This document shows, one piece after another, positions 8,697 through 62,254 of a stretch of 64,000 nucleotides of DNA. Origin of the DNA: Anaeramoeba flamelloides (Eukaryota; Metamonada; Anaeramoebidae). Each line of letters begins with the position of its first letter. Positions within the stretch are counted from its first letter, which is position 1. Where the stretch lies: contig JANTQA010000051.1 in NCBI GenBank assembly GCA_027625915.1, positions 4,340,501 to 4,404,500 on the forward strand, in the 5' to 3' direction. The translations under genes and the position numbers were made by a program. The notes below the pieces were generated by a model. It made no database searches, was not told where the DNA came from, and worked only from the letters and a program-made list of their open reading frames with translations.

Positions 8697-8729
<33 letters not shown>

Positions 8730-11700
8730 ATAATTCTAATAATTCTAATAATCCTAATAACAATAATAATCATAACAATAGCAATAACAATAACAATAAC
8801 AATAACGTTAATTCAAACGGGGGGGTTACACATATGATTAATTATATACCAAAAATCAAATGTTTAGAAAGATTAATCCAATATGATGACTTTGACATAA
8901 ATTGTAAAATGATTCAAAATTTGAGACCACTTCATTGTTTATGTTTGCGATCCAATCCATCAGTAGAATTAATACAATTTTTAATTGATAATGGGGCCAA
9001 TGTTAATTGCAAAGATGATTTACAATTAACCCCATTGCATTGGCATTGTAATCAGCCCAATCCGTCGATTAATGTGATTAAAGTGTTGATTAATAACGGT
9101 GCATATATCAACTGTGCCAATGCGAGTCATGAAGCTGCTTTGCATTTAATTTGCGATCGTAATAATCCAAATTATAAAATTATTGAGTTTTTAATCCAAA
9201 ATGGTGCGAATATTAATCAACCGGGCAAGGAAAAAACAACTCCTTTCCAATGTCTTTGTGATCAAATTAATAATCCTCCATTTAATATTGTAAAATTAAT
9301 GATTGAAAATGGTGCAAATATGAATTTGCAGGACGAGTTAGGTGAAACGCCAATACATTGCTTATTGAAAAAACTGAATCCAAGTTATCAAATTATTGAA
9401 TACCTGATTCAAATGGGTGCCGATATGAATAAGAGATATTACAAAACTAAATGGACGCCATTGCATTTTCTTTGTAATCCCAAATTAATGAAAAAAGACT
9501 TTACAAAATTTTCGCATCCGAAAAATCTACAAATTCAATTACAAGATAAAGGTAATGATAAAATAAATAATTTTTATAGTGATCAATCAATAAAAATATT
9601 TTCATTAATAATATCAAGTGGTGTTGATTTAAATGTGCAAGACTTAAATCGAGATACCCCATTGCATTTTTTATGTAATCAAAAAAAGCCTTCATTTGAC
9701 ATTATTAAACTATTCCTTGAAAACGGCGCTGATAAAAATCTACAGGGTTATAATAAAAATACACCTTTACATTGGGTTTGTTGCCAAAAAAATCCTAATA
9801 ATGAGATAATTAAATTATTCCTTCAAAGCGGTGCTGATATTAATATATTAAATCACGAATCAAAATCCATTTTACATTTGATTTGTGAAAAAAATATAAG
9901 CCCATCCAAAGAAATAATACAATTATTAATTAATGATGGTATCAATTTAAATACTCAAGATATTAATTCTGATACTCCATTGCATTTTTTATGTAATCAA
10001 AAAAACCCTTCATTTGAAATTATTAAATTAGTGGTGATAAATGGTGGTGATATTAATATGAGGGGTTTCTTGAATCAAACCCCATTGCATTGGCTGTGTG
10101 ATCAACAAATACCAAGTTATGAAATAATTGAATACTTTATGAAAAATAATGTATTGGTTAATGTACAAAACAAAGAATTAGAAACACCCATGCATTTGCT
10201 TTGTAAATCACATACTGATGATGATGATGATGACTATGGGGATGAGGATGGAAGTGAGGGGGATGAGGATGATGATGATGATGATATTATTGATGATGAT
10301 GATTATGATGAAAAAATGAGAAAAAAAAATCAATTAAAATATAGTTTCAAAAGTGACAAAAAAGCATGGAATATAATTCATAATAAAAAAGTGGAAAAGA
10401 TGGAAAAGATGGAAAAGGAAGGAGATGACAAAGATGCAATTGAAAAGAAAGATGACAAGGATACAATTGGAAATAAAGATGATAAAGATGTAATTGAAAA
10501 GAAAGAAGAAAAAGAAGATGATGATGATGATGAGAAATTGCAGAACACCTTTCAAATCCAAAATTTAATTAAGATTGTAACTTTATTCACAAATAATAAA
10601 GCTGATTTTACTCTTAAAAATGAAGATTTCTCCACCCCCTTTCATTACTATTACCAACAGAAAAATCCGTCTCTAAAGGTATTAGATATGTTGTTACAGA
10701 ATATTCCAAAAATAAATTTAATAAAAACACCCAATAAGGAAACATTCTTACATCTGGTTTGTAAATCAAAAAATCCATCAATAAAAATAATCAAATTATT
10801 GCTTGATCATAAAAATAATCCAAACCTGGAAACAAGTGATCGAAAAAAAACAGCCCTTCATTTTCTATGCAAATCAAAAACCCCATCATATGACATCATA
10901 AAATTGCTTCTTGATAATAAAGTTAAAGTAAATGTGCAAGATTATAAATTAAGAACACCTTTACATTTATTGATGAAAATGATTTTTAATCAGCAAGATA
11001 TCCAAAAGGTAAGGGAATTGGTCCCCTTTCTAAATTTATTTCTCAGTCGGAGTGTGAATCTCAGATTGAAAGACCAAAGCAATAACACTATTTTCCATTT
11101 GATTATTGATCAAATAACTTTTAGCAATCAGCAGATCCTATATGAAATTTTTATGCTATTGATTAATAAACTTGATTATTATTATCCCAAAAATAAGAAA
11201 TGCTATTATTCGATTTTTAAATATTTAATTTTTGAAATATCAGATTCCTCAATCAATCTGTATTTGCCATTTTTAAACGTCTTTTTGAACAAAGGCTTAT
11301 CCCTTAATCAGCTAGACAAAAAGAATAATAATAATTCCATCCTACACATCTATTTTGAAAGGCAAAGATGCCCTTCATTGGTGTTGGTCAAGCTTCTACT
11401 AAAGTGGGGGTTTAATATTAATAATCAAAATGATACGCTGCAAACGGCAATACATATACTTTCTAATAATATAAGTATTTATCGTGCCGTTGTTAATCGG
11501 GATGTGATGAATAATCAGGGTGTAAATTACAATATGCAACTACAAATAAATACAGGAAATAAAAAGAAGAAAAAGACAAAAAAAAAACACATTGCTACAA
11601 TCAAAGGTAAGGCCAAAATTAAAAGCAATCTATTGCTAGTGAATCTTTATAAATGCTTCCTCAAGTATAACGCAAATCTGGCATTGAAGGACCACCGGGG

Positions 11701-12247
11701 GAGAACAGTCCTGCATTTCATGATTTTCAAAATGCCAAGAAACCTTCGATTTTATAGAGAATTTTTCCAATTGTTAGAAAATTATAACCAAATTCATTTA
11801 ATCAATTCCACAGATTCAAGAAATCAAACAATCCTACATTTGCTCTGTAAAACCAAAAGATGCAACACCGATTTAATAAAGGTATTGGTTCAATTTAATC
11901 CCGATTTTAATATCCAAGATATTAACCGTGAAACTGCATTGCATTTGCTTACCTATAAAGATCGCAAAAATCGTAAAAAGTATCCTCTCATCGAACTGTT
12001 ACTCAAGAAGGGGGCAGACATCAATATTCTCAATAAGAACGATTTGACACCCATATTCACTCAATGCATGAATAATTTAAGTTTTAAGGTTATTCAATTA
12101 TTCGTTTCCTACAAGGCTAACCTTAATATCCTGAATAATAAACAAGAAACTTTGCTTGATTATATTCTTAGAAGAAGAAGTGCTAATAAAATAGTCATTA
12201 ATTTTTTAATAGAAAATGGTGCTAAGACAAGCAACCAAGTAAAATAA
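6817..12247 (+). CDS. B-box zinc finger / coiled-coil / ankyrin-repeat protein
   Basis: Two exons: 6817-7021 and 7161-12247. The donor is GTAAAA at 7022, and the acceptor after 7160 keeps frame; an acceptor after 7190 also does. The product is ~1763 residues. Residues 21-58 form a type-1 B-box with ligand pattern C21/C24, C33/C36, C41/C44, H49, H58. A Lys/Glu/Arg coiled-coil follows (~135-275), then Asn runs (~480-620). An ankyrin block spans ~635-1083, an Asp/Glu/Lys linker ~1085-1190, and a second ankyrin block ~1195-1758. Most ankyrin units are ~35 residues with TPLHxLCxxxNPSxxII, two residues longer between the helices than the usual 33. The likely role is a scaffold; the B-box may mediate self-association. 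No RING, kinase or other enzymatic domain is visible, so the function is unknown. Confidence 0.9.
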
Positions 12248-26258: not shown

Positions 26259-29200
26259 TTATTTTAGAGTTTCAATTGTAGAACGATATATATGAAGATC
26301 GGATTCTTTAAATACGTCAAAAAGTATTAATTCAAATTGTGGATTTTCTTTCAAAAATTTTTTAGCAACACCTACTGCAATTTCGGAGCTAACCTTTGGT
26401 GAAAATCCAAACAGCCCAGTTGAAATACCACAAAAAGCAAGTGATTTTAGGTTATTATCCTTTGCAATCTGAAGGCAGTTTTCATAGCATAACTTTAAAA
26501 TCCGTTCTCCCTCGTCCGTCCCATATCTTTGCTTTGGCCCCATTACATGAATTACGTATTTGCTTGGTAGATTATATCCACTTGTGATTTCAACATTTCC
26601 GATTTCTAAATTTGGTGATGTTTTTGCAAGGATAATCTTTTTGCATTCTAAACGTAATCTTGGACCAGATGAAGAATGAATCGCGTTATCAACGCATGGG
26701 TGGTTAGGTGTTGTACATCCCAACAATCTATTTTAATTTATTATTATTATTTAGAAACAAACAGAATTTAGAAAGATCAAGAAAAGAATCAATAGTTAAA
26801 AAATCGAATAAATTATTTTTTTGATTAATATTGTAAAGTTTTTTTTCTCGCAATAATTCTTTTATTTTTATTTATATTTTTATTTGTATTTTTATTTTTA
26901 TTTGTATTTGTATTTGTATTTTTATTTATATCTGTATTTGTATTTGTATTTTTATTTACATCCTATCAATGATTAATTTCAAAATTAATTCTTCGAGTAA
27001 TTATTTATTTCGGATACAAAAAATAATAATAAAAATCTTGATTTACAATCAAAAAATAATCTCGACAAATAAAATTAACTCTAAATGCTAAAAAAATTAA
27101 AAATTGCTAAAAAAAAGCACAACATCAAATTCTTGCCCTTAGGGAAGTTTCGTTTATTAGTAACATTTTTTAGAACCTGAAATAATTTCTAAGGTTTGTA
27201 TTTGAAATTAATATTAAAAAATATATCTGATTTTGATTATTTTTCCATTTATTCTTTTTGAGATTTTTTTCCATCTCCTTTTTTTGAGTTTAGGTTTTTT
27301 TTCTCTTCTAAAAAAAAATAATTTTTTTTATTTTAGTTGTTTTTTTTGTTTTAATTAAAAAGTAGAGAAGAAGAAAAATAATGAATTTTGTGATTCTAAT
27401 TTGGTGAGCAACGCGTTGGAGATGATAAATAGTGGCGACAATTTTGCATCTTCTTATTTACAATTACCTTTACTAAGAATAAGTTCTGACCAGCACAGTA
27501 ATAATTCCTTTTACTTGGATCAACTTCTGTCTTATTACGTTAATAATGTCTTTTTCTGGGATCAACCGAACTCAATTACGGTATTACACAAACAGTTGGT
27601 ATCATGGCGGTGATCCAGAAATTTTCTACATAATTAACCTTAAAGGAAACAACCAACACCCCATTCAACATTCGGGGTACAAAAAAAAATTCAAATTAAT
27701 AAATTTATTTATTATGACCGGAATTGAATCAAAACAGATTCCCCTTATATGAAAGAAGTCCTTCCAAAAAAAAAATTAAGCTTTTTTTTTTTTTTTGTTA
27801 TGTTTTTTTTCCACTCTTCATTTTTTACTCTTTTTTTTCTTATTTTTTTCAGAAAACTAAATTGAGTTTAAAATACTTCTAATGACTGTAATTAAAAGGT
27901 TCTTTTGACTACTCTTTGAATTAGGAGTAACAAATTTAGTCACTTCAAAACTCTCTATTTAACAGATTAAAAGCTCTTGAACACTTAATCCTTACCAATA
28001 AAGCTAATCTCTTTTTTTTTCTCTTTCTCTTTTAATTAAAAATTATAATTTTTTCTTTTCATTTTTTAAAGAAAAACTATCTCATGGGTTATAATCTTGC
28101 CCACATTATAACTAGGATAAAAAAATCTACATAAATTTTACGTTTCAGGAAGTTCCGTCAAGTTTCTAGGTTTTTGTTAATTTCTAAAGTTAATAAAAAT
28201 CTAATGGCGATTTTCCAGAATTCAAAAGAATTGAGCAAAATCTTAGATTTTTCTCAATTCATTTCAATTATGGTGAACCTAACGTGAAGTGCAGTGGGGT
28301 GATAAGCTTTTCCAGAATTCAAAAGAATTGAGCAAAATCTTAGATTTTTCTCAATTCATTTAAATTCTGGAAAAGTTAACAGCGGGTTTTATTAATTTCT
28401 AAAATTAATAAAAACCTAACGGTGGATATGGGGTAATTTTTTCGAATAACCTATCCCCAATAATAAAATAAAAAACAAATAAAGATAATTCTCAAGAAAG
28501 AAAAATGTAATAGTTTATTTGATATTGTTAAGAATTAAGTATTTAAAAAGCACTTAATATGTTAAAGAGAGAATTTTGAAGTGTCTAAATTCGTAACTTC
28601 TAATTCAAAGAGTTTCTAAAAGAGATACAGTCGTTAGAAGCATTTAAAACTTAATTTAGTTTTCTAATTAGAAAAACAACCGTTTTAAAAATTAAATATT
28701 GAAAAAACAAAACACAGTTCGGGATCCTTTTTATAATTTAATTAAGTAAAAAATCATGATACCAAGACTTGTTCATCACTTGTGCCTTAATTATCGATTT
28801 ATTTTTTCTTATTATAAAAAACTTTTCCAATAATACTGGTATTTGATTAATAAATAGGAAAAACATTTTCATTTCAATTTTTTGTTTTTTCAATTATAGT
28901 AGGGAAAAAAATACCGGACATGAAAAAAATCCTGGACAAGATTTTTAATTGTGAGTATTAGTAAAATTTTTGTCTAATTTCAATGAAATCCTTATTATAA
29001 ATAACCAATTTTTTTATGAGATTAGTAATAAACCTACCTAAAGTCCATCAAAGTAAGGTGTCTCTAGAATACTCGAGTATTTGTTTGATAGCCATATGTT
29101 GATCAACTTTTTTTGAAAAACAATCCAGTTTTATTGAGGTTTACTAGAGTTTGGAAAATGATAATTTTTCTTCTTGTTTTTTGATTTATTGAATGGTGTT

Positions 29201-33651: not shown

Positions 33652-35883
33652 TTATTTTTTATTCTTTTTATTCTTTTTTTTGTTTCTTTGAATGTTTTTA
33701 TTATTGGGTTGCTTTTGTTGTTTATTGTTTGTTGTTGATTGGGATAAAGATGGAAATTCTTCTTGATTTTTTAAGTTTCTAGAATTTGGTTTTTTGTTTT
33801 TGTCCCAGGCGCCATATTTTCTTTTGTAAATATTTTTCTTTGAATTATTTTTTTGGGTTTTTTTCTTTGAATTATTTTTTTCTTCTTGTTTATTTTTCGG
33901 AATACTTGGCTTTAAAACTGGAAATTCTTCATCGTCTTCAAATTTTTGATTTTTAGAATTCTTGTTTGTATATTTATTAGAATTATTTTGCTTCTTTTTG
34001 TTTGGATTTTGTTTTTTATTTTTCTTTTCAATGTTATTATTATTAGAATTATTATTATTTTTATTATTATTGGTTGAATCTGGCTCACTATCTTCATTAT
34101 AATCCCATAACGATTCAATTTTTTCGGACCCTGAATCTGATTCTACATCTGAGGCATAACTTATACTTGAATTGTTTTCTTCTAATTCATCTTTGTTTTG
34201 TTTCTTTTTGTTACTGATTTCTCGTAAAGATAGTTTGCCTTCATCCAATTGGACTGCTTGATTAAATAGCTCTTGTTCTTGTTCTTGTTCTTGTTCTTGT
34301 TCTTGTTCTTGTTCTTTTCTAATACTTTTTAAAGATTCTTTATTTTGGTTTTTTTGTGGCGAATTATTTTTGTTTTGCTTGGCTTGTTGTTTTTGTTTTT
34401 GCTTTTGCTTTTGTTTCTGTTTTTTTAGTTTTGCTTGTTGTTGTTGCTGCTGTTGCTTCTGCTTCTGCTGCTGTTGTTGTTTTTCTTCAAGGAGTTGTTG
34501 TTCTTTTTGAATTTCTAAAAATGATTTTGGTCTTGTGACTTTTTGATTTTTTATTTCATTTTGTTTTGTCTTTTTGTTTTTTCGTTTATTATTTTTTGAT
34601 TTCTTTCGAGTTTTTGTTTCGTTTTCTTTTTCTTGTTGTCTAATGTCTAATAATGAAAATTTTTGTTTGTTTGTTGTTGGCTTTTCCCACCCTACTTTTT
34701 TTTGGCTTGATTTTTTATTTTTTGGATTAACTTTTTTTGGATTAACTTTTTTTGTTTCAGTTTTTTTTGCTTTTTGATTTGGTTCATTCTTTTTTTGGTT
34801 TTGTTTTTTTGTCTTTTGGTTATTATTTTTTTTTGTCTTTTGGCTGTTATTGTGATTGGTCTGATTGTTATTATTTTTTTTAGTCTTTTGGTTATTAATT
34901 TTTTTTGAATTTTTGTTTTGGTTACTATCTTTCTTGGGTGACTTTTCTTTTAAATTATTAATATTTTTTGTTTTTTTATCGTTCTTTGGACTATTTTGGT
35001 TCTTCTTTTCTGGGTTGTTATTTTGGTTTTTACTTTGATTATTTTTTTGTTTATTATTTTTCATGCTTTGGTTTGTTATATTTTGATTGGTCTGATCGTT
35101 ATTATTTTTTTTAGTCTTTTGGTTATTAATTTTTTTTGAATTTTTGATTTGGTTACGATCGTTGTTTGGTGACTTTCCCTTTGTTTTGTTATTGTTCTCG
35201 TTATCTTTCTTATTGCCCTGTTGGTTCTCCTGCTCCTTTTTTGTTAAAGATTGAAAATCGATTTTCTTTTCTTTGATCTTTGTAAAGCAATCTTTTGGCC
35301 TTGACCATAAGGATTTTAAAGTAGAAAAGGATGGCCATTCTTTTCTTTTAACTTGTGTGCTTGATGCCAAATTGCCAGATCGCAATAACTTTTGCATTTC
35401 TCTTCTCGAAAAAGGACCTTTTGTTTTGTTTTCTTGATCAACATAAAACCAATTCTCCTTGTCTTTCTTTTTCTCTTTTGTTTGCTTTTTTTTTTTATTA
35501 CTGACGTGTTTTTCTTTTGGAGAATTTTTGGACATTTTTAATTCAAGTTCCTTTGTTTTTCTCATTAAATTTGCATACTTTTGTTCCTTTTCATTCAATT
35601 TATTTTTTTGTGGCTTTTGTTCTTTTTCAGAATTTGAATCATTGCTGCTATGGCTTCTTTTATTTAAATTTGTTTTGTTGGAAATCCGGAGTGCCAGAGA
35701 ACTATTAATTTCTGAACGATCTTGATATTTGTTTGTATTTGGAAAAAAATTCATCGGGGCTAAAGGAAGGTGAACATACAAATGCTCATTTTGGACAAAG
35801 TCCTTGGGTAATGGTAAGTCTTGAGAATATAAATCAATTAAGGACTTTTTAGTAAAACAAATTTTATCGATAGTTTGGATCAT
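33652..35883 (-). CDS. GYF-domain protein, GIGYF/EXA1-like
   Basis: A single exon, 743 aa, ATG at 35883, TAA at 33652. GYF domains bind proline-rich peptides; GIGYF/Smy2/EXA1 proteins use this in translational repression and mRNA decay. A GYF domain lies at residues ~145-193: WFYVDQ, GPFSRREM, then LLRSG. The usual G-Y-F tripeptide is G-N-L here, so ligand binding may differ. The N-terminus, CFTKKSLIDLYSQDLPLP, resembles the eIF4E/4EHP-binding segment at the start of GIGYF proteins (inference). From ~205 to 690 the chain is extreme low complexity: Lys/Asn/Gln blocks including a Gln-Glu run. Two EEFP[SV]L motifs near 637 and 715 recall short linear motifs of RNP proteins. Likely cytoplasmic. 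The family assignment is fair; partners are unknown. Confidence 0.85.
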   Translation of the reverse strand: MIQTIDKICFTKKSLIDLYSQDLPLPKDFVQNEHLYVHLPLAPMNFFPNTNKYQDRSEINSSLALRISNKTNLNKRSHSSNDSNSEKEQKPQKNKLNEKEQKYANLMRKTKELELKMSKNSPKEKHVSNKKKKQTKEKKKDKENWFYVDQENKTKGPFSRREMQKLLRSGNLASSTQVKRKEWPSFSTLKSLWSRPKDCFTKIKEKKIDFQSLTKKEQENQQGNKKDNENNNKTKGKSPNNDRNQIKNSKKINNQKTKKNNNDQTNQNITNQSMKNNKQKNNQSKNQNNNPEKKNQNSPKNDKKTKNINNLKEKSPKKDSNQNKNSKKINNQKTKKNNNNQTNHNNSQKTKKNNNQKTKKQNQKKNEPNQKAKKTETKKVNPKKVNPKNKKSSQKKVGWEKPTTNKQKFSLLDIRQQEKENETKTRKKSKNNKRKNKKTKQNEIKNQKVTRPKSFLEIQKEQQLLEEKQQQQQKQKQQQQQQQAKLKKQKQKQKQKQKQQAKQNKNNSPQKNQNKESLKSIRKEQEQEQEQEQEQEQELFNQAVQLDEGKLSLREISNKKKQNKDELEENNSSISYASDVESDSGSEKIESLWDYNEDSEPDSTNNNKNNNNSNNNNIEKKNKKQNPNKKKQNNSNKYTNKNSKNQKFEDDEEFPVLKPSIPKNKQEEKNNSKKKTQKNNSKKNIYKRKYGAWDKNKKPNSRNLKNQEEFPSLSQSTTNNKQQKQPNNKNIQRNKKKNKKNKK

Positions 35884-42805: not shown

Positions 42806-44302
42806 ATGTTAAGTGCTTTATCTGAACCAAATCGAAGATATGTCTCGATTATGTTAATTGTTATAATATTTATCTTTTTTACTGTTGGGATCTTTTATCC
42901 AAATGAACAAAACATAAAAAATACAGAATTAAATAACGAAGAAGAAAAAGAAACACAAAATCAAGATCATAATTTTCAAGAAGAAAATAAACATTCAGAA
43001 AAAGAAAAAGAAAAAGAAAATAATAAACAAAAAGAAAAAGAAAAAGATAACGAAAAAGAAAAAGAAAAAGAAAAAAATAATGAAAAAGACTTTGAAAAAT
43101 CAGATTTTAATAACTTGATTGCCAAAGTCGATTTTCTTATAGAAAAAGCAGATTTGAATTCAAATAATAATTATTTAGAGAAAAGAATTTCCTTTCTTGA
43201 AGATCAGATCCGTTTTCTTGAAAAGAAAATTGAATTTTATCATATAGATAATCCATTAAAACAAGAACAAGAAGTAGAACAAATTTTTAAACAATTTTGT
43301 TCGGCCACAGAACAAAAAGAAAAATTCGTTGGTTGTAAAAAGGAATGGGAAACAATCAAAAATCAAATAGGTGATTTAATAATTACAGATGAATTTTATC
43401 CATATTATTCAAACAATGGTGACTGCCAACGAGAAATTTGGCTCAAATGTGCTGGACAAAATTTGATACCAAAGCAAGTCTATCAAATTGTCTTTGGTGA
43501 CAATCCAAATGAAAAAAAAATTAAAACCAAATTTAGGGAGACCAAAGATGAATTAATTGGTTCCAATGATGGCTATCAGTTTAATTTGTTTACAGACAAT
43601 GAGTTTGAAAAATTGCTTTCCTTATTTGCAACAGACGAAGAGCAAATTCTATTTCAAAATATTCGATCTCCCGCCTTAAGATCCGAATTCTCACGGGTGC
43701 TCTTAATGTATCATTTAGGAGGTATCTTCATGTCTCCACAAGTTAATATAAAGAGCCCATTTCAAAATTGGATTTCGACGCACGACTCATGTGTGCTCTT
43801 TTATTCTCTTTCCAAAGATTGGGATCAACATAGCGACAGAATTGGGGCTTTTGGAAATGCGGAGAAACTAATTCCAAAACCAAAATTTTGGGAGAAAATT
43901 GAAAATTCTTTTTTTGCATGTAGCCCAAGGCATCCATTTATGGAATATCTGAAAGAAGAAATGATTCACCAACTTAAACAATTATTGTTTGAACAGGTCG
44001 ATGCCTTAAATACAATGGAAATCACAGGAACAATAATCTGGAAACACACTTTTCAAAAATATTATCGCTATTTAAAAAATAATTTTTATTTCGTCAATAT
44101 GAACCAAATGTGTTTAGATTCTGAAAAAAATTGTAACATGAATAATTATATTTCTTTTGAAAAAGGTCCTGATAATGACAGTTTAGTATTTGATATATAC
44201 GTTAATAAAGAAGATGCATTTTATTCGACAAAAATTGAAGAGTTATACTTTCAATGGATCGAAGAAAAACAAAAATTACAAGAATCATTAATCCCTAATT
44301 GA
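42806..44302 (+). CDS. GT32/OCH1-like type II membrane protein lacking the DXD motif
   Basis: A single exon, 498 aa, stop TGA. A short cytoplasmic N-terminus is followed by one membrane segment (~12-31, SIMLIVIIFIFFTVGIFYP), a Lys/Glu stem (~45-95) and a coiled-coil (~105-150). From ~225 a fold like the DXD sugar-transferase family (OCH1, GT32) begins: PKQVYQIVFGDNP, then FNLFTDNEF, then RSEFSRVLLMYHLGGIFMSP. In active members the last block is RxDxxRYxxLxxxGGxYxDxD and binds the metal and sugar nucleotide. Here the two Asp are Ser310 and Gln312. The fold and Golgi-type topology are clear, but catalysis as GT32 is doubtful. It may be a pseudoenzyme or use other residues. The neighbours do not help. 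Confidence 0.85.
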   Translation: MLSALSEPNRRYVSIMLIVIIFIFFTVGIFYPNEQNIKNTELNNEEEKETQNQDHNFQEENKHSEKEKEKENNKQKEKEKDNEKEKEKEKNNEKDFEKSDFNNLIAKVDFLIEKADLNSNNNYLEKRISFLEDQIRFLEKKIEFYHIDNPLKQEQEVEQIFKQFCSATEQKEKFVGCKKEWETIKNQIGDLIITDEFYPYYSNNGDCQREIWLKCAGQNLIPKQVYQIVFGDNPNEKKIKTKFRETKDELIGSNDGYQFNLFTDNEFEKLLSLFATDEEQILFQNIRSPALRSEFSRVLLMYHLGGIFMSPQVNIKSPFQNWISTHDSCVLFYSLSKDWDQHSDRIGAFGNAEKLIPKPKFWEKIENSFFACSPRHPFMEYLKEEMIHQLKQLLFEQVDALNTMEITGTIIWKHTFQKYYRYLKNNFYFVNMNQMCLDSEKNCNMNNYISFEKGPDNDSLVFDIYVNKEDAFYSTKIEELYFQWIEEKQKLQESLIPN

Positions 44303-48108: not shown

Positions 48109-51100
48109 ATGTCAAAAAGCCTTTTTGAAGAAAAAAAACATGTTACAGAATTATTATCAAAACATTCAGAACAAATTTGTGGTGAATTTTGGTACATGAT
48201 CGAAAAATCATGGTTTAAAACATGGAAAAGATACATTGAACAAAAAATAAATCATAATGAAGAGTTAAGATTTGCAGAGCCAAAAGAAATCAACAACTTC
48301 CCCTTGTTGAGTTCCCAAAATCAATTAAAAAACAATTTAATTCAAGATCTCGACTACGTTGCAGTTCACTCAAAAGTATGGGAGTACCTATATAAAATGT
48401 ATTAATTAGAATATCTTTTTTGTTTTTTTCTTTTTTTTTCAGATCTGAGAAACAAATTAACATTCTTTCCTTTGGTGAGTGAAATTGTAAAACCATAAAA
48501 TAATGGTGATTATATTAACTCATTAAATTGGAAACTTTTAAAAGGCATTTCAATTGAAAAGATACAGAAAGAGAAAAAATTGATAAAGAGTTTTTTAAAA
48601 AGAGAGATAATATTTTTCTCACAAAGTATTAATAATATTTTGTCTGAAAGTTCGTCAGCCATTTGTGAGATAATTTACAAATCTTTTTTGTCACACTTTT
48701 TTAAAAGCACAGAGGTGTAAATAAGCGTGTTTTTTAGTCTTGTCACATTACCAAAATTTAACCAGTCTTCAAAATATTGGATCACTGAAGAAAGAAATGA
48801 AAGTAATTAAGGGGATGAAAACACATAAATAAGAAATAGTGTTCTTTAAATATATTTTAAAAAAGAATTCTGAAGATATTGAAAGGTTAAGGTGGGGTTT
48901 CCTAAAAAGGCTAAAAAAAGATCATTTTTTCCATTTTTGAAAAAAATCCATTTTTGTCTCAACAAAATTTTATAAATTTGCAAAATTTTTGAAACACAAT
49001 CATTTAATATTTTTTACAATCGTTTCCATTAATCAAAGATATAACCCCAAAAACAAATTTGCATCTGAACCAAGTTTGTGCATACTAATTCTTATCTTCA
49101 AATATCAAAGCCTGAAAAAAAATAAAAAAAGAAAAGAATTTTGTAAAATTTACCTTTAATCAAAAATAAATGTCGAGAATCAGTTAGATTGTTTTTTTTT
49201 GTAAATTAGAGGAGTAAATTGAAAAAAAAGTTCACAATTAGACACTTTATTTGTTATATACAAACTTTAAATAAAATAAATTAATTTTTCACCAGTAAAC
49301 TGAAATTTAAAAATGATGGTTATAAAAATTAAAAAGATATAAGCTATTTCCAAAAAAGAAGCGCAAATTTATTTTAAAATATCTTTATTAAAACTAATTC
49401 CACTATTACGATTCAAGTATCCAAAATTTTTATTTACCCTTGATTGATTCTAGATAATATTCAATTTGCTTATTTGTAAGAAAATTCCTTAAAAAAAGAT
49501 ATAAAAGTTTCTGATCACGATTTTATATGATATTTTTTAGGTGTGAAAATTGGTGATTATTTTTTACTTTTTAATCCTGATAAATTATTTCCTCCAAAGA
49601 AGTTTAATGCCTGATAAATTTTCTCAAATAAAGGGAAAACTTATAAATGCCTTTTATTATTTAAAAAAATACCTTTGTAGACTTACTATATTTTGGATTT
49701 TTTATTGAATTATGTATTACAGTGTCTTTTACATAAAAAAAAAGTTTCAATTTTTTTATCATTTTTTGGAAATATTTTGATGGAAATATTTCTTGAAATA
49801 GAAACAATAGACACTGTTTCATCCAGTTGTAATGTTCTTCTTAATTGTAAATTTTCAATTTAAGAATAAAACAACTCAAAAAGAAAATATTATTTGAAAT
49901 CTAAAAAAAAAAAAGTACCCACCTTTTTCAAAATATTTTATTCTATTTATAATCAAATTATTAAAATTATTCGTCATATTAAAAAAAGAAAAAGAAAGAA
50001 AGAAAATATAAGAAAGTGTACAAAACAGCTTTTTACAACAATAAAAACAAAATTTTGTATGAGAGTGATGTGATAAATTAGATATTTCTCTACCTTATCA
50101 AGAATTATTTGATATAAATTTCTTTTTAATTAATTCATTTTTTATAAAAATACAATTTCTAAAACAAAAATAATATGGAAATAGATATTCAGGTGGTCCC
50201 GTGATTAAATATGTAATACAAGAAGCGCAAAATAATAATGAAAATATTAATGAAAAGAAATTGATGTATTTTTATTATTATAAATTCATGAATTCAAAAT
50301 ACCAATTAATTACCATAATTCAATTCAGATTAACGAATAAAGTATCTGATATTTGGGATCAAATTAGTAATATTATTAAAACACCTGCAAAATTGATAAG
50401 GATTTATTTAATGGATAAAAATGAAAAAAAATCACATGAACTAATTAATTTTACAAAAAAAAGTATTTTACATTATTTTAAAGAAGACACAAAATTAATA
50501 TTTGACATAGCGGATTCGTCTAATAAAACTACGTTAAATCCCATCATAGAACAACAATACATGTATGCAGGATTAACGGGTATTAGAAATATTGGGAATA
50601 GTTGTTGGTTCATTTCTGCAATACAATGTTTATTAAATACACAGCCTTTATGTGAATATTTTTTAACACAAAAGCATTTATTAGATATTAATACAACCAA
50701 CCCACTTGGAATGAAAGGAGAGTTGGCAGCATGTTTTAGTAAGATGTGTCAAGATTATTGGTCAGGAAATTATTCAATTATTTCCATGCAAGAGCTAAAA
50801 TCTGTAATTGGTAACTTTTCAACACAATTTAAAACTAATGACCAATTTGATTCTCATGAATTAATCACTTTTTTAATCGATGCTTTACATGAAGATTTGA
50901 ACAGAATACTTAAAAAGCCCTATATAGAAGAAATTACTGGTAAAAATAATGTTGATCTTAAGAAATTAGCAAAAGAGAGTTTATCAAATTTTAAAAAACG
51001 GAACGATAGCTTTATTTGTGGTAAGTTAATTATTATTATCTTTTTTTTAAATTTATTGATAGCATATAATTTTTTGTTTACGGAATTGTATTTTTTTTTT

Positions 51101-54100
51101 TTTTTTTTTAATAATGTTTTAATTTTTTACTTTTAAAGATCTAGACCTAAAATAAACAACATTCATAAATAAGAGGTAATAGAACAAAAAGTTATTTTTA
51201 AAGATCTTGAGTTAATTTAGATTGAAAAATTCAATTTTCACAGAGTTTTTTTTCAATTTTTTTCCAACCACAAAATACAATAGAAGAGATTAAATTATTT
51301 TTGGTTCAGGAGATTAATTGGATATATTATTAAATTTCAAATTTGGTAAATTGTTAAAATTGGTGTAATTGAATTTTTGCGTATTTTTAATGAGTATCTT
51401 GATTAATTTCATCAGTATGATAGGTTTTAAAAATATTTAATGATTTTGAGAGTAAAAATAAAAAATATTTGTTTGTGGTTAGTAATATTTAATTCCTTAA
51501 ACTGTCGAAAATCCAAAATAGTTGTAATAATCTTTAACAATTATTTTTTAAAAAATTGTTCTAAACACAATTTTAACCCCAAAGTTTAGTGGGAAATTTT
51601 TACACCTTTAAATTCCAAAAAAAAAAATCTTTAACTTGATCAATTGTTTTTGCTTGGTTTGAAACTTCAGATTTAAATCTATAAAATTGAAAAATTTTAT
51701 GAAATTTTTTCGAAGAGCAAAAAAAAATCACAAGATCACAAAATATTATTTTTTGGTTATCATTAAAAAAAAGATTTTACAAAAAATAATTTTTTTTAAG
51801 GTGGAAAAATGAAGAAAAAATAAGTTGATTAATGGGATAGCCACCATAAAGTAAAAATTTTCATTTTTTAATATTTTGAAAGATGATTAGAAAACAACAT
51901 TTTTTACTTTACTTCTGTCTAGTTGCATTTTTAGAATTCAAAGTACTGGTTGAAAAATAATTTATTAATTTTAATTTCACACGTAAAATTAAATGCCACA
52001 ATAGAATGCCAAGTTGATTTGTTTGATCTATTTTGGGCAATGTTAAATAGTTTAACTTTTGTTCTTATCCCAACATTCTATTTTGTAATTTTATTTTATG
52101 TTGGAAAAAAATATAACAAATCATTTTTAAGAAAGGTATTTTAAATACCCTAAAATCAAGCAAAACCCTCAACTAAATAAACAAGACAGTATTAAGATCT
52201 AATTGTAAATTAAAAAAAAAGTTAAAGTGTTTACTACTGGTATAAGACTCATATTTTATTTGAACTTTCTCTACAATTTAAAAGGGAACAATATGTACTT
52301 AGATAAATAAAAAAAAAAAAAAATGAAATGGTAAACAATCTTTAGATCCTTCATTTTATATTAAACGTTTTTTTGTGTGAAATATTTTGAATTTAAACTG
52401 CTTTTTTCAAAAAAATGATTGCGTAAAGAAAATTTTTCAACTAAATAGAATTAAAAATTATAGAAAAAAATTAATGATTTCCATAATTCTGGGTATTTTT
52501 CTTGTTACTAAATCTAATCTGATAATAAGTTAGGATTCAGGGGTTATTCCAAAAATAATAAGCATTTTTGATGTAAATGTTCAACCAACCCAGTCAACCA
52601 GGTATAAAACAACAAGAAAAATATTTTTTAATCTGATCACTGGATTAATTTGTTTTTTTTAATTTATTTTTCAAAATTAATTTTTTTTTTGAAGATCTTT
52701 TATATGATCAAATTCATATTTTTCTAATTATAAAGTGTGTTAAAATGACTTGAAAAGTTAACAAATATGAAATTCGAATTTATTTATAACACTGGTATGA
52801 AGATCAATATCATTATTTGTAATTTAAATCCTTATAAAATATAATCTCACAATTCCTAATATTTACATATTTTACTAAAACTGATTAGGAATTGAAATAA
52901 AAATGCAAAATTAAACTTGTACTTCGCAATGAATAATTATTATGAGTTCAAAGTATTGTTTAAACTGTACAAAACAATGAATTTTAAAGATTGAAAAGGT
53001 AATAGAAATAGTTTTTTTTTTTTGATTTTATTTTCCTGATATATTTTGTTAAATTGATTAGTTGAAGTTGAGTAAATATTTTAAAAATAGTGTTTAAATT
53101 AATCCAAGATAATAGTTCTAAAATAAGGATATATTTGTATTTATTAAAATTCAAAAGAATTATCTAGAAAATATTATGGTACTTTTATAAGTTCAAGAAA
53201 AAAACTAGTTTTTATTTTATTAATATTAAATAAGTTACTAAAAAATTTTAAGAAAGGTAAAAAAAAGAATTTAATTAATTAATTAACGATAAAATTGTTT
53301 AATAATATCCAAAGAATATTACCAAATAAAATGAAATTGCTTTTTAAAAGAAATGACACTATTAAATAAAAAATATATAAGAAACACCAATGAAACCTGG
53401 ATTTCTCTTTTCTAAAATAGAATTTTGAAAAAAAAAATATTATAATTATTTTTTGAGATCTCTCGAATATTTGGTTTTGGTGAATATTTGCCGATCTGGT
53501 TATAATCAAATCATTACAAAGAATTATGTAAATATAATCTGAAAATACAAAGTGGATGAGTTTATTTTTATCCCAAAAGTAAATCTCCTAAAAAAATTAA
53601 ATAAATTTCTCAAAATTAATTTTTTTTTTTATTATATTATTTTCTCTGAAATTTTAATTGTTGATATTAGCAAAATTAAAGTTTTTGATTTATTTTTTTA
53701 AAATTTTTGGGAATCGAGAACTTTAGAACACCAATATAACTTTTAATAAACTATCACATACTTCAATATCAGTGGTTTTTATGATGTTGCTTCTCTCTTA
53801 AATACTATTATTTGAGTTCTGAATTTGTCGATTTTTTTTTATAATCGATTTTCTTTTTGCGATAATAAACCCCGTTCCAAAAATTTGGACACACCCAAAA
53901 TCAAAAATAGGCAAAAAAAAACCCAATTTATTGTATTTTTCCAGACCTAATATAAAACCACATTTAAGTTGCCCAGTATTAATGTTTAAATAAGTAATCA
54001 CTTTAACCCAAGTAAAAGAAAAAAATATAAAACTCAAAAATAAAAACAGGTGTGTCTAAAATAATGAAACGAGTGGAACAAAAAATGTATTGGTAAATTT

Positions 54101-56112
54101 GTTGAAATTTCACCAACAATTGTTGATCGATCAAATGTTAAGATACCTTCTATCAATTGTATGTTATTTTTCAATTTAACAAACTCAACTTTTAACCTTC
54201 TATCAATTATTGAAAAAAAATTTCAGATCTAACGAAACAAATCACGTTACTACAAAAAAGGAAATAAAAACAAAACAAAAAAGATAAAAAATGAAATAGT
54301 TTGTATAATCAAAATTCTTTCCAAATTGAATTTAAAGCACAGTAATGATGTTCTTTCAACTGTTTAAACTGTGTCCAAATTTTTGGAATCTAGTTTAATA
54401 TATATATATATTTGTATTTTTTATTATCAATTTTCTTAGATTCCAAAAGGGGGAATAGAACAAGATTGCCTAAAAATTACATAATTATTTTAATATTAAA
54501 TGATAATTTACAATATACATTGTGAGATTTTCGGCAAAAAGTAAAAATAAAATAAACCATAATACGGTTAATTTTTCATAATAAAAACTCTTTTTTTAAA
54601 ATACGTCACTTATTTTTTTATTATTTATTTCTCCTAAACAAAATCTCAAATCGTTGTAACTAATAAATAAAAAATAAATAAAAATAAAAAATAGATAAAT
54701 TTCAAGGGCTATTGTTAAATAAATTAAAATGTACAAGTTGTGATTTAATATCTTATAAATTCGAACCTATGATGTCGTTATCTATACCATTGGTCACAAA
54801 AAAAAATAACGAATATGATGTGGTTGTAATACCGATTGATCGAAGTATTGAGCCTATAATGCAATACCATGTAACGAGTAAGAAAAGCGAAGGTTTAAAG
54901 GGGTTTTTGAAATCTCTTTCTGGGATGTGTGGAATTGAAGGCGAAAGTTTACAACTAACTGATGTTTTTGGATCAAGTATTTATAAAATTCATAACACTG
55001 AAAGATCATTTGAAAACATACGAAAGTCTGATAATTTAGTTGCATATCAGATCCCAAAATATGATAAATATAATGAAGTGCTAATACCAATATATTTTTA
55101 TTATTTGAATGGTACGCAAGATTACAGGTTTGGTTATCCAGGAAGAATCAAATTAAAAATTCGGGAAATAAATTATGATGAATTTTTTAAACTATTAAAT
55201 GAAAAAATATACGAATTATTGCCTAATTTGGAAGAATATTGTAAAAATTTTGAAGAGGGGAATTTTGAAATAATTACTAATTTGAAAATTAATTCAAATG
55301 AACAAAACAAGAACAATAGTAATAAATTTAAAAAAAATAAAAGAATTTTGAATCAAGAGGAAAAACAAGAATTATATGAGCAATATGGTTTTAAAAAATC
55401 TAAATTTACGCCAGCTTATAAAATATCTATTGGAAAACAAAACTTTTCCGGAAGATTTGAAGAAGAATTTATTGATTTTGAATCAAAAAGTAATACAACA
55501 TTTTTAATTCATGAAAAAATTAGAATTGGCATCAAATTAAATCCAATTTTTACGGACAAATTCCCTCAATATATTAATCTCATATCCAAATTTAACAAAC
55601 ACGAAAGTGTTAATATTTATCAAGAAAAAGTTAAAGAATTGAAATTGAAGAATAAATTTGGAATTCCATTGGAATTGTGCATCAAAAACTTTCTTCAAGA
55701 AGAACAATTAAGTGATAATAATGAATGGTTTTGTCCTTCTTGTAAAAAGCATATCAACGCCATTAAAAAAATTTCAATCTGGGATTTGCCCGAGATCTTA
55801 ATTATTCAGCTTAAGCGTTTCCAAAATAATAATTTTTTCCGTTCCAAATTACAATCCTTAATCGATTTCCCATTAGTACTTGATATTTCAGATTATATTA
55901 ATGATAATTTAAATCTATCGCGTTTCAAATATCAATTATTTGCTATTTCAAATCACGATGGTGCATTTAATGGTGGCCACTATTATTCATACTGTAAAAA
56001 TTTTAAATCAGATATCTGGTTTAAATACAACGATTCTGTGATTTCAGAAATTACCGATCTCGGCTCTCTCAAAACAGAATCAGCTTATATTTTACTTTAT
56101 CAAAGGATATAA
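48109..56112 (+). CDS. DUSP-UBL-USP ubiquitin-specific protease (USP4/11/15 type)
   Basis: Cysteine protease that removes ubiquitin from proteins. Four exons: 48109-48398, 48443-48474, 50193-51020 and 54695-56112, phases consistent, 855 aa. Residues ~1-117 form a DUSP domain (WYMIEKSWFKTWKRYIE, DYVAVHSKVWEYL, then GGPVIKYVI). A ubiquitin-like domain follows (~130-215). The USP catalytic core holds the Cys box GIRNIGNSCWFISAIQCL (Cys ~245), zinc ligands CTSC (~396/399) and CPSC (~730/733), and the His box NGGHYYSYC (His ~812) with YNDS (~829). All catalytic residues are present. The last acceptor is the AG before 54695, which yields DKFQG; a later AG would lose these residues. Introns are 44, 1718 and 3674 nt. 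Likely a functional housekeeping deubiquitinase. Confidence 0.93.
48475..50192 (+). other. Intron 2 of the USP gene (1.7 kb)
   Basis: GTGAGT donor and TTCAG acceptor. AT-rich; no repeat, exon or RNA recognised inside. Confidence 0.8.
51021..54694 (+). other. Intron 3 of the USP gene (3.7 kb)
   Basis: GTAAGT donor, ATAG acceptor. It contains a complete TA-flanked Tc1/mariner-like MITE (53868-54395); otherwise AT-rich with nothing recognised. Confidence 0.85.
53868..54395. mobile_element. 528-bp Tc1/mariner-like MITE
   Basis: The terminal repeats contain TTCCAAAAATTTGGACACA at the left and TGTGTCCAAATTTTTGGAA at the right, with TA on both outer flanks and AAAC/GTTT at the extreme ends. The terminal sequence with GGACAC recalls Tc1/mariner-type ends. 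There is no transposase ORF. Older copies are at 2546-3065 and 25775-26092. Confidence 0.8.
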
Positions 56113-57401: not shown

Positions 57402-60400
57402 TTAACAACATCCAGAATCTTTTTTTCTATCTTCATTAGAAATTTCCTCAAACTCTCCAAGATTTTCAATTTTTTGATCCTTTTTCGTTGAAGAATTTGC
57501 CTTTTCGATGTTATTTTTCAATATGTAATCTAAAAGAAATTCCACTGATTCTGAAACATTTTGGCCTGTTTTAGCACTTGTTTCAAACCAACCAATATAA
57601 CCTTGCTCTTCACAGATAGTATCCATTTCCTTTTTGGTTTTATTCCAACTACTTTCCTCATCTATTAAATCAATCTTGTTTGCACATAAGATCACAGGGA
57701 TTGGTGAATTTGTGTTTGTCCTGACTTTTTCATCAATATCCTTTTTCCATTCATTGATCACTTCAAAAGATGATCGGCTGTCAACATCAAAGACAAGTAA
57801 AGCACCAATCGAATCTTTATAATATACTCTCGTCATATGTCTAAACATTTCTTGTCCTAAATTTAGAAATTATATTGAAAAATTTTAAAAGGTATTCATA
57901 AAAAGGGTAAATAATGTTCAAAAGAGAACAGTTTGTTGATAAAAGATTCAAAACATTGATGTTTTTACTTGTTGAAAAAGACTGTTCAAAAAAAATATAT
58001 TAAGCTTTTATATTATTAATAAAAAGAATTTGTCATTTATATTATCATTAGTAAGTGATAATAAAATTTTTGATACTTCACTACAAGGAAAATTTAAATA
58101 CCTAAAATTAAAGTTAGCCAAAACTATACATTGGATTTAAGTTATACTTCTTTTATAAATTATTTTTTCAAAGTTATCATAATTTTATGTAATAAAAAAA
58201 GGATAGCTATTAAACTCTTGAAAATCTGAATACCCCCCATTTCAAAAATACCGACTTGTGAAAAAAACACCTATTTTCAGGGTATTTTTATATTGGAAAA
58301 AGTTGAAATGAATTAATTTTTTGATTGAACATTAAGATTGAAAAAAAGAATATATGTTAAAGCAATTTGCAGAAAACAACCGGGAACGTATATAAAAACT
58401 TAAACAGGGAAAAAAATAAAATGATAAAAAATAGTCCAAAAACAGATAAAAAATCAGATTTTCAATTTAATTGAGCAATATCTTTTGATTGAAATATTTT
58501 GTACTATTTTCAAATTGAAAAAATATGTTTCCTTTTATACTATTAAAAAAAATACTTGAAAATTATCTCTCTACTAAGTCAATTAAAAAATTCAAAAATT
58601 TTACAATTAAAAATGAAAAAAATATTACTGAAAAATTTCATTTTTTTTTCAATTCATATTAATATCTATTAAAGTTGTAAACCTCATTGAAAATTGTTAT
58701 GTATAATAATATTTATTATATGAGTGTATTTCAAAAAATACAAAATTTAGAATTTTTTTGAAAAAATTTTCCTTGTACACTACAAGGAAAATTTAAATAC
58801 CGAAAATTAAAGTTAGCCAAAACTATTCATTGGATTTCAGTTATACTTCTTTTATAAATTATTTTTTCAAAGTTATCATAATTTTATGTAATAAAAAAAG
58901 GATAGCTATTAAACTCTTGAAGATCTGAATACCCCACTTTTCAAAAATACCGACTTTTGAAAAAAACACCTATTTTCAGGGTATTTTTATATTGGAAAAA
59001 GTTGAAATGAATTAATTTTTGATTGAACATTAAGATTGAAAAAAGAATATATGTTAAAGCAATTTACAGAAAAAAACCAGGAACGTATATAAAAACTCAA
59101 ACATGGAAAAAAATAAAATGATAAAAAAATATTCCAAAAAACAGATAAAAAATCAGATTTTCAATTTAATTGAGCAATATCTTTTGATTGAAATATTTTG
59201 TGCTATTTTCAAATTGAAAAATATGTTTCCTTTTAGACTAGTAAAAAAATACTTGAAAATTATCTCTCTGCTAAGTCAATTAAAAAATTCAAAAATTTTA
59301 CAATTAAAAATGAAAAAAATATTACTGAAAAATTTCATTTTTTTTTCAATTCCTATTAATATCTATTAAAGTTGTAAACCTCATTGAAAATTGTTATGTA
59401 TAATAATATTTATTATATGAGTGTATTTCAAAAATACAAAATTTAGAGATTTTTTTTTGAAAAAATTTTCCTTGTAGTGTAGTGTTGTACAAAATATTCT
59501 AAAAAAAAGTTTAGAAATTGTGGAAAGTGCCTGAGAGTGCCAAGTTTTTCTTTTTTATTCTTAAAATCTATCGATTTATCAAATAAACAGAAAAGTCAAG
59601 TGCATTCAAATTGCTAGGTTTTTCTTTAGGTTGTATGTTTATCTGTAAATTCTATTGAATTTTCTTTTAATTTCTTTTTAAATTCTAGAAATAATGGTAA
59701 GTGCCGTAGAGTGCCTAGCTTTTTTTTAATTTAAGAAATTAAAAGAAAATTTTTGAAATTTTCTTTTTATTTCTTAAATTAAAAAAAAGCTAACTGCGGT
59801 TTTCCAGAATTAAGTCAAAAGAATTGAATAAAAGCTGTGATTGTATTCAATTCGTTTAAATTCTGGAAAACCTAACGAAAAGTGTCCGTGGAGTGCCTAG
59901 GTTTTTTTGAGGTTTTCTGTTTTATCTGTTAAGTGTTCTAGGTTTTTTTGAGGTTTTCTATTTTATTTGGAAAATCTATTGATTTTCGTTAGGTTTTTTT
60001 TTACTTTAGAAATAAACAGAAAATTTTAATAAATTTTCTGCTTATTTCTAAAGTAAAAAAAACCTAGGACACTTCACAAATAAATAGAAAACTCAAGAAA
60101 ACTTAACGTCCGTTTTTTTCAATTTGAGAAATAAACCAGAAATTAAATAAATTTATCTATTTTCCAAATAAACAGAAAACTCAAGAAAACCTAACAGAAG
60201 TGATTAGGTTTTCCAGGATCCAAAAGAATAAAGTAAAATCTTTGATTTAACTCTATTCTTTTCAATTCTGGAAAACCTAACGGCAAACAAGAGGAATTAA
60301 AAACTCCTCCCTTAAGGGACTAATCTCTATTAAATTTTTTTACCTAAATTTAATAGAGATTGAGAAAATTTTTTGCCAATTACTTATATTTGAAAATCCC

Positions 60401-62254
60401 TCTGTTTATTTTCAATATTAAACATATTTCTAGAGAAGGAATCCTTAATTAGAAATTGGTTAAAAAAAAAATAATAGAGACTAATCATTTAAGTGGCGAA
60501 GTATCAATGTTTTATATAAGTAGTACCTTAAACAATAAAAAAAAAATAATAAAAAAAAATAATTAATTTTTTAACTATTAATACTTTTATTTTCCAATTA
60601 ACAAATAAAATTTTTGTTTCAAATTCTCAAATATTTTACAAAATACTGTTAATGTGTTGAATCCTCCTTTTAGCCTTTAATAATTTATATTTTTTCTTTT
60701 ATTAATTCATCTTACTTTTCATTTTCAGGTTCTATTTAGGTTTCCAATTTAAAAATCATGTTGGACTATTATTTCCAAATGGTTAAACCTTTTTACTCAA
60801 AGGTGATTCAAGAAATTTTGATCTCCTCAGTGACTGACAAATTTAAATAAATATTTGGAAAATCATTTTTCATTTTGAAATTTTGGAAAGTTTTACCCTA
60901 ACTTTTTAAAAAAGCATTTTATGAGTTTTCATTGTAATGAAACTTTGTAAAATTGCTTGTTCTTCAAAATATTCGTTGTCAAAGAGCTGTTTTAAAAGTA
61001 GAGTTTGCAAGATTTTCAAAAATGGAAATTGAACTAAAAATTGTTTTACATTTTTTTGAATTTATCAGTGATAGATCAATCAAAGAAAAACCCATACTAA
61101 AAGATAGTATTAATAAACTATTAATGTGTTGAATCTTCCTTTTTGCTGTTAATCATTTATATTTTTTCTTTTATTAATTCATCTTAATTTTCATTTTCAG
61201 GTTCTATTTAGGTTTCCAATCATAAAAAAGGTGTTGAATTTTTTTTTCTGTTTAACTTTTTTTCTCCAAATGGTAATTTTTGTAACATATTTTTTTACAT
61301 TACTTTGAATTAACCGCAATTCAATTTTTGTGCAGTTCGAAATTCATGTTATATCGGACACAAACCTGAAATATTTGCTTTCTGCAAAAAAGAAAGAGCC
61401 AAAAAAGTAATTTCAAAAAAAATTGGAAATAACTCTCTTTTAAGGACTTGGTCTTGATGTAATACTAAATTAGAACGTTTTTTTTGATCTCTTTTAGATC
61501 AAGTCGATTTCTGATAAATTTAAACGTAATTGTAGCGAAAGTCAATTAGTAGCAGTGGTAAGATTAAAGCAAGAATAATACATGAATTGTATACAAAGAA
61601 GATACGAATTAGAATTAATAAAGAAGAAAAATATTTACCAGCAATGTCCCATAGTTGCAGTTTTACTGTTTCGTTTTCTCTTGTAAGATCTTTCATAAAA
61701 AAATCCACACCAATCTTTTGTTAAATAATTTTTTTTGGATTAACAACCAAAAACAAGACAAAAAAAAAAATATAAAAAAAAAATAAAAAAAAAGAAAAAA
61801 AATTAATATCTTTTTTGTTAGCAAGATCTCAAAGGTAAGTGGTTTCAATTAACCAAAAAAAAAAAAAGAGGTAAAGAGAATTACTGTTGCTTTGTAAGAA
61901 TTTGAAAATACATCGTTAGTATATCTTTGGATGATCGAAGTCTTTCCAGCGCCTATAGAATTTAGGAAATATTTTGTTAAAGTTAAAACACATTTCGCTT
62001 TGTTCAAGAACGATCCAAAAATTCAAAAAGAAAAAGAAAAGGAAAAAAATAACAAACCCATATCCTTTTTATTTGATAAAATTTTGAATTGAAAGCAAAA
62101 TTCGCAAAGTTGATTTTTCATTAATATTTCACAAGAGTACCAACAAAAAGAAATAAAAAAAAAAAAAATTGAAAAATTAAAATAAAAAGATAAATCTTAC
62201 CCCAACAACAATAAATTTGTACCTCCTTTCATTTTCTACATTTTGTTCTGACAT
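57402..62254 (-). CDS. rab32: Rab32-family small GTPase, five exons
   Basis: Membrane-traffic GTPase of the Rab32/38/29 group (lysosome-related organelles, mitochondria). Exons on the minus strand: 62254-62201, 62064-62058, 61952-61885, 61714-61639 and 57856-57402; 660 nt, 219 aa, all phases consistent. The P-loop GDMGAGKTS (residues 18-26) is assembled from three exons, the middle one only 7 nt. Switch I has YKAT43IGVDF. WDIAGQE (65-71) carries the Ile that marks the Rab32 group, and Gln70 is intact. It continues with MTRVYYKDSIGALLVFD, SPIPVILCANKIDL, GWFETSAK and a C-terminal GCC for double geranylgeranylation. All five G-motifs are present, so it should be active. The start at 62254 gives a short N-terminus of normal length. 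Intron 4 is 3.8 kb and full of repeats. Confidence 0.95.
58079..58777. mobile_element. TIR element, tandem copy 1
   Basis: Starts CACTACAAGGAAAATTT and ends AAAATTTTCCTTGTA: terminal inverted repeats. Directly followed, without spacer, by a second copy in the same orientation. About 97% alike by eye. No coding capacity; small reading frames inside are chance. Confidence 0.85.
58778..59479. mobile_element. TIR element, tandem copy 2
   Basis: Same as the preceding copy; ends CCTTGTAGTG, a perfect inverted repeat of its own CACTACAAGG start. The head-to-tail junction reads CCTTGTACACTACAAGG. Confidence 0.85.
59706..60283. repeat. Hairpin-repeat cluster D (several nested hairpins)
   Basis: The largest cluster. 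59706-59797 is a stem from GTGCCTAGCTTTTTTTTAAT to its complement. 59803-59877 is a TTTTCCAGAATT stem. About 59936-60105 is a large stem (CTAGGTTTTTTTGAGGTTTT pairing with AAAACTCAAGAAAACTTAAC) that encloses a second perfect stem at 59994-60066 (AGGTTTTTTTTTACTTTAGA and its complement). Another AAAACTCAAGAAAACCTAAC tract follows. 60204-60283 is a TTTTCCAGGATCCAAAAGAA stem. Non-coding, inside the Rab32 intron. Confidence 0.85.
60312..60492. mobile_element. Small TTAA-flanked MITE, copy 2
   Basis: TTAAGGGACTAATCTCTATT at the left, AATAGAGACTAATCATTTAA at the right, TTAA at both ends. Immediately adjacent to hairpin cluster D in the Rab32 intron. Confidence 0.8.
62058..62064 (-). other. rab32: 7-nt microexon of the Rab32 gene
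   Basis: The minus strand reads ...AAAAG, then GATATGG, then GTTTGT. The 7 bases are flanked by AG and GT and supply exactly the missing Asp-Met-Gly of the P-loop: exon 1 ends in GGG and exon 3 begins GCGCTGG. Without it the frame is lost and the P-loop is two residues short. Confidence 0.9.

Follow-up and report, generated by a model that had tools for sequence, protein, structure and literature searches.

Conserved microexons that encode the core of a protein motif are already known from land plants, where, in the accessible text of PMC8831610, the small exons described include a 9-nt exon of invertase that encodes D-P-N/D-G/A of the beta-fructosidase motif. Smaller exons have been described as well, and APC11 of Arabidopsis carries a constitutive single-nucleotide exon documented by transcription and translation assays (PMC4674806, accessible text). 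In this study, we report a predicted 7-nt exon in the P-loop of a Rab32-family GTPase gene of Anaeramoeba flamelloides, and the motif-encoding microexons of plants are the systems to which it is closest. The invertase and Rab32 exons are alike in being ultra-short, in lying at the core of a family motif, in being retained within a gene family and in being easily missed in annotation. They differ in that the invertase exon has a length that is a multiple of three and belongs to a glycosidase, whereas the Rab32 exon breaks the frame and belongs to a protist small GTPase. The APC11 exon shares with the Rab32 exon a size far under the usual and a length not divisible by three, and is constitutive; at 1 nt, it indicates that the initial annotation of the present locus, which placed a 7-nt exon near the lower limit of exon size, had overstated that point. 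The plant microexon set is backed by RNA-seq (PMC8831610) and the APC11 exon by the assays mentioned above, whereas the Rab32 exon is a prediction from genome sequence. No report of a microexon in a Rab P-loop was found among the papers listed from the open-licence PMC literature on microexons, Rab32/38/29, GTPases, protists and Anaeramoeba introns; a comparison of Rab introns in C. elegans covers, in the part accessible, Rab5, 6, 21, 22, 23, 31 and 34.

The window analysed here, a stretch of 64,000 nt, is low in G+C (0.205-0.274 in 4-kb steps), and a search of the genome (254 Mb, 76 contigs) returned 474 first-look candidates for Rab/Ras-like matches, of which 150 were scored. In both its A+T richness and its many Rab/Ras-like matches, the genome resembles Anaeramoeba as described in the accessible part of PMC11550330. 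The window contains a Rab32-family gene at 62254-57402 on the minus strand, with five coding exons and with its P-loop interrupted by two short introns that leave 7 nt between them. Exon 1 (62201..62254) encodes MSEQNVENERRYKFIVVG and ends in phase 0 after the first Gly of the P-loop, its 3' end reading GTTGTTGGG followed by gtaaga. Intron 1 (62065..62200, 136 nt, GT-AG, phase 0) is followed by the microexon GATATGG (62058..62064), flanked by aaaaag upstream and gtttgt downstream, which comprises the codons for D and M and the first base of the next Gly. Intron 2 (61953..62057, 105 nt, GT-AG) interrupts this Gly codon, and exon 3 (61885..61952), which starts GCGCTGGAAAGACT, encodes (G)AGKTSIIQRYTNDVFSNSYKAT and contains GKT. 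The predicted spliced reading across the P-loop is MSEQNVENERRYKFIVVG-DM(G)-AGKTSIIQRY, and the residues of the microexon are those that we take to be Ras positions 11-13. The earlier description of the phases stands for the end of exon 1 and required correction for exon 3: intron 2 is a phase 1 intron, and the second and third bases of the interrupted Gly codon come from exon 3. Intron 3 (61715..61884, 170 nt) precedes exon 4 (61639..61714), which encodes IGVDFFMKDLTRENETVKLQLWDIAG with the WDIAG motif, and intron 4 (57857..61638, 3782 nt) precedes exon 5 (57402..57856), which runs from QEMFRHMTRVYY through a C-terminal DSGCC and the stop codon.

Intron 4 contains internal direct repeats. Long repeats at 58063-59463 with a spacing of about 699 nt (259 nt at 95%, 221 nt at 94% and 134 nt at 82%) resemble a unit of about 0.7 kb duplicated in tandem, and a second direct repeat at 60640-61227 consists of 2 x 116 nt, 90% identical, with starts 472 nt apart. 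Further coding stretches of the window, at 2-958, 7094-12247, 26259-26726, 33652-35883, 50201-51136 and 54712-56112, gave Pfam matches to RasGEF, ankyrin repeats, Macro domain, GYF domain and ubiquitin carboxyl-terminal hydrolase (two pieces); the open reading frame at 42806-44302 had no Pfam match at 1e-5.

The spliced protein of the window gene has 219 residues and a Ras domain (PF00071, E 3e-45). Its nine top distinct PDB sequences were Rab32, Rab38 and Rab-7L1 (Rab29), with E values from 2.3e-55 to 3.1e-45; the best match was solved Rab32 (E 2.3e-55), and the next after the Rab32/38/29 set was Rab27A (7.9e-36). WDIAG instead of WDTAG at the start of switch II is a hallmark of the Rab32 subfamily (Rab32/38/29), and the window gene contains LQLWDIAGQE, the WDIAG of which is shared by solved Rab32 in the PDB alignment. 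The cysteines of the C-terminal DSGCC are placed as for predicted prenylation. From these sequence features we infer that the product functions as a Rab32.

Splice routes through the P-loop were enumerated with GT-AG sites, allowing either one intron or two introns, each 30 nt or longer, with an exon of 1-12 nt between them, and were filtered for exactly four residues from the first P-loop Gly to GK. GATATGG was the sole route through the window gene giving a P-loop of the right length; it is bordered by canonical splice sites at either end, and within the enumerated routes the frame was restored solely with this segment. Dinucleotide shuffling of the 248-nt interval of the window gene produced any AG-N7-GT in 8.5% of cases, and a stop-free one encoding [DEN]x[GAS] in 0.43%, the latter rule having been set after the data were seen. 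A spliced alignment with the window protein, two P-loop residues masked, recovered GATATGG as well, but is a consistency check only, as the query was derived from the same gene.

Related genes were sought with the peptides of exons 3 and 4. The exon 3 peptide gave 16 matches, comprising ten Rab32-like, three Rab7-like and three Ras-like exons (labelled by motif). With the exon 4 peptide, 19 matches were obtained: 13 belong to the assembled WDIAG/WDIGG genes, and the other six read WDT, five of these being in loci that were read together and the sixth lying at C46:403203. Since only the best candidates are scored in such a search, the counts of paralogues are lower bounds. There are thus at least 13 WDIAG/WDIGG genes, ten with a two-intron interval and three with intron 1 only. 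Nine of the ten two-intron genes contain a 7-nt exon at the identical position, with phase 0 upstream and phase 1 downstream, and these nine loci are spread over eight contigs. They fall into four subgroups. Group A (the window gene C51, C9 and C70a) has GATATGG, GACATGG and GATATGG, respectively, with P-loop GDMGAGKTS; group B (C22 and C70b) has GATCTTG in both, with GDLGTGKTS; group C (C46 and C64a) has GAAAAAG in both, with GEKATGKTS; and group D (C33 and C48) has GATCTCT in both, with GDLSTGKTS. In group E (C64b, C70c and C70d), which has intron 1 only, the rest of the P-loop (NLGTGKTS) lies in one exon. The proposal that an AG/GT-flanked GATATGG restores the P-loop of a Rab32-family GTPase is borne out by the enumeration, in which it is the sole solution, and, as the main new evidence, by the nine genes that share a 7-nt exon.

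The tenth two-intron gene, C17 (L016, C17:4177469-4180531), which the tree places in group C, has an 8-nt candidate, GAAAAAAG. An in-frame ATG was not seen in its exon 1, and its one-intron full-length route reads GVCSTGKTS. This gene may reflect an assembly error in an A-run, a decaying copy, or a true loss of the microexon with a shifted donor. Its A-run shows that a one-base difference is possible in this assembly or gene family, which speaks for the reading that the 7-nt exon itself is a chance match or a product of assembly error and does not exist. We regard that explanation as scarcely credible, and it is largely refuted by the occurrence of the same arrangement at nine paralogous loci on eight contigs. 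When 3000 dinucleotide shuffles were made for each of the nine genes, any AG-N7-GT was found in 5.8-19.4% of intervals and a stop-free [DEN]x[GAS] one in 0.03-1.3%; the product of these latter probabilities over one gene per subgroup is 1.8e-10, a figure that assumes independence and a rule set after the fact. One further AG-N7-GT candidate was present in each of C22, C33 and C48. These were rejected: that of C22 holds a stop, and those of C33 and C48 differ between these sister genes.

A spliced aligner that charged 14 per intron, and for which the two P-loop residues were masked, took the microexon in five of the ten genes. Under these fixed costs it chose a donor 4 nt downstream in C46, C64a, C33 and C48, which omits the microexon and keeps the frame with a P-loop one residue short, and a donor 7 nt downstream in C17. 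Some genes might have no microexon and instead read GVTTGKTS or GVCSTGKTS in the P-loop, and the route in C17 does have the correct P-loop length. The GxxxxGK[ST] spacing is fixed in P-loop NTPases, and the P-loop left one residue short of it by the 4-nt shift is therefore held to be implausible. An in-register 7-nt exon, giving GEKATGKTS or GDLSTGKTS, is moreover available in all four of the genes concerned, and at the position of the shifted donor GT is absent from both the window gene and C9. We consider the shifted donor very unlikely as a replacement for the microexon.

Microexon and introns were compared in six gene pairs. Ungapped identity of the introns was 54-90%; the microexon was identical in four pairs and had one synonymous difference in two. 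The introns of the window gene and C70a were 57 and 54% identical, those of C22 and C70b 58 and 60%, and those of C46 and C64a 69 and 73%, the microexon being identical within each of these pairs. The microexon of C9 was one synonymous base apart from that of the window gene and from that of C70a. C33 and C48 say little on selection, because their introns (89 and 86% identical) are nearly as alike as their coding exons (91%). Retrocopies were searched for with the window gene and with group D. An intronless copy across the microexon was absent from the genome search with the 315 bases of joined window exons (15 matches, 10 scored candidates), and the 88-residue protein of group D gave top P-loop-spanning matches that were only 44-45% identical (150 of 630 candidates scored).

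Skipping of the microexon shifts the frame, as the initial annotation stated; in the window gene a stop then follows after 47 residues, and across all nine resolved genes this distance is 24-50 residues. If intron 2 is retained, a stop comes before exon 3 is complete in nine of nine genes, and if intron 1 is retained, the same holds in eight of nine. Accurate inclusion is thus needed for a working protein, since skipping and intron retention both give early stops; regulation is not implied. The early stops on skipping also speak for the rival reading that the microexon is alternatively spliced and that its skipping turns the Rab off in some conditions. Splice sites of intron 2 also score below those of the other introns of these genes, with means of 3.17 for donors and 4.88 for acceptors (n=9) against 7.82 and 7.15 (n=38) on matrices built from the 38 comparison introns themselves; the donors (8.23) and acceptors (8.22) of intron 1 are not weaker than those of other introns. 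Most exons with a length not divisible by three shift the frame when skipped, and the frameshift as such therefore says nothing of regulation. A functional regulated microexon has been reported, in the accessible text of PMC11121469, for Xlr2 of the fungus Trichoderma. Both splice sites are nevertheless kept in nine of ten two-intron genes across four diverged subgroups, and constitutive inclusion fits this better than a switch; we therefore consider a regulated switch unlikely.

The introns that flank the microexon all measure 88-184 nt (18 of 18). Of the remaining 22 introns in these nine genes, by contrast, 11 are longer than 300 nt, with a maximum of 5734 (Mann-Whitney p 2e-5, Fisher p 3e-4; the genes are related and the tests non-independent). 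Such short flanking introns fit recognition across introns, and a location near the 5' end may by itself account for their length. It is likely, in our judgement, that GATATGG is a real coding microexon, most probably constitutive and intron-defined, which has been kept since two introns came to be separated by 7 nt. This reading draws on the position and phase of the segment, its uniqueness in the enumeration, its recurrence in paralogues, the lengths of the introns and the effects on the frame. The functional mRNA would join exon 1, the 7-nt segment and exon 3, most likely constitutively. Introns 1 and 2 would each be recognised as a short intron, so that the microexon need not hold the splicing machinery on both of its sides simultaneously. 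Skipping it, or retaining either flanking intron, would nearly always give an early stop and no GTPase. In plants, the introns that flank microexons are spliced late (PMC8831610, accessible text), and by analogy such delayed splicing may be a useful model here.

The arrangement would have had a single origin, in which two introns came to sit 7 nt apart within the P-loop codons, and would then have been retained through gene duplication into at least four diverged subgroups. Subgroups A-D share 50-66% protein identity and are about as distant from one another as from solved Rab32 and Rab38 (49-67%; 47-67% for all thirteen proteins). It is conceivable, though we rate it as rather doubtful, that the P-loop microexon is an ancient Rab32 feature of the lineage that predates the split of A-D, and maybe a shared splicing checkpoint that sets the dose of the whole Rab32 set. 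Group E matches groups A-D in the position and phase of intron 1 but has no intron 2; since the backbone of the tree is open (7 of 15 inner branches), gain versus loss of intron 2 is without polarity.

Other Rab genes of the genome differ in their P-loops. Six genes (L021, L025, L026, L067, L068 and L069), which we take by motif to be Rab7-like, have a single P-loop intron of 117-132 nt in phase 2 (GDSGG|T), one base from the site of intron 2 in the Rab32 genes. Their P-loops are thus intron-split, as in the Rab32 genes, but by one intron and without a microexon. L077 and L078 are intronless and Rab32-like, with FDIAG and a continuous P-loop (GSFATGKTS and GSYATGKTS), and share 33-42% identity with the genes in which two introns split the P-loop. 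A microexon common to all Rabs was ruled out, as the P-loop is continuous in 12 other Rab/Ras-like loci (L047, L063, L064, L070-L072 and L077-L082, a non-random sample that leaves out L001-L008). The P-loop pattern was not found in the fetched loci L045 and L046, both of which were dropped.

The microexon is thus in all likelihood real and conserved among paralogues, and is probably constitutive. If spliced as predicted, it would be a microexon that breaks the frame, has long been kept and occupies the motif under the strongest constraint in a small GTPase, here one of a protist. Rab gene models in such genomes may consequently drop the P-loop. This one genome also holds a natural series, with genes that have both introns, the upstream intron only, a Rab7-like intron offset by one base, or no introns; given splicing as predicted, this series would allow direct tests of how a microexon arises, is maintained and is lost.
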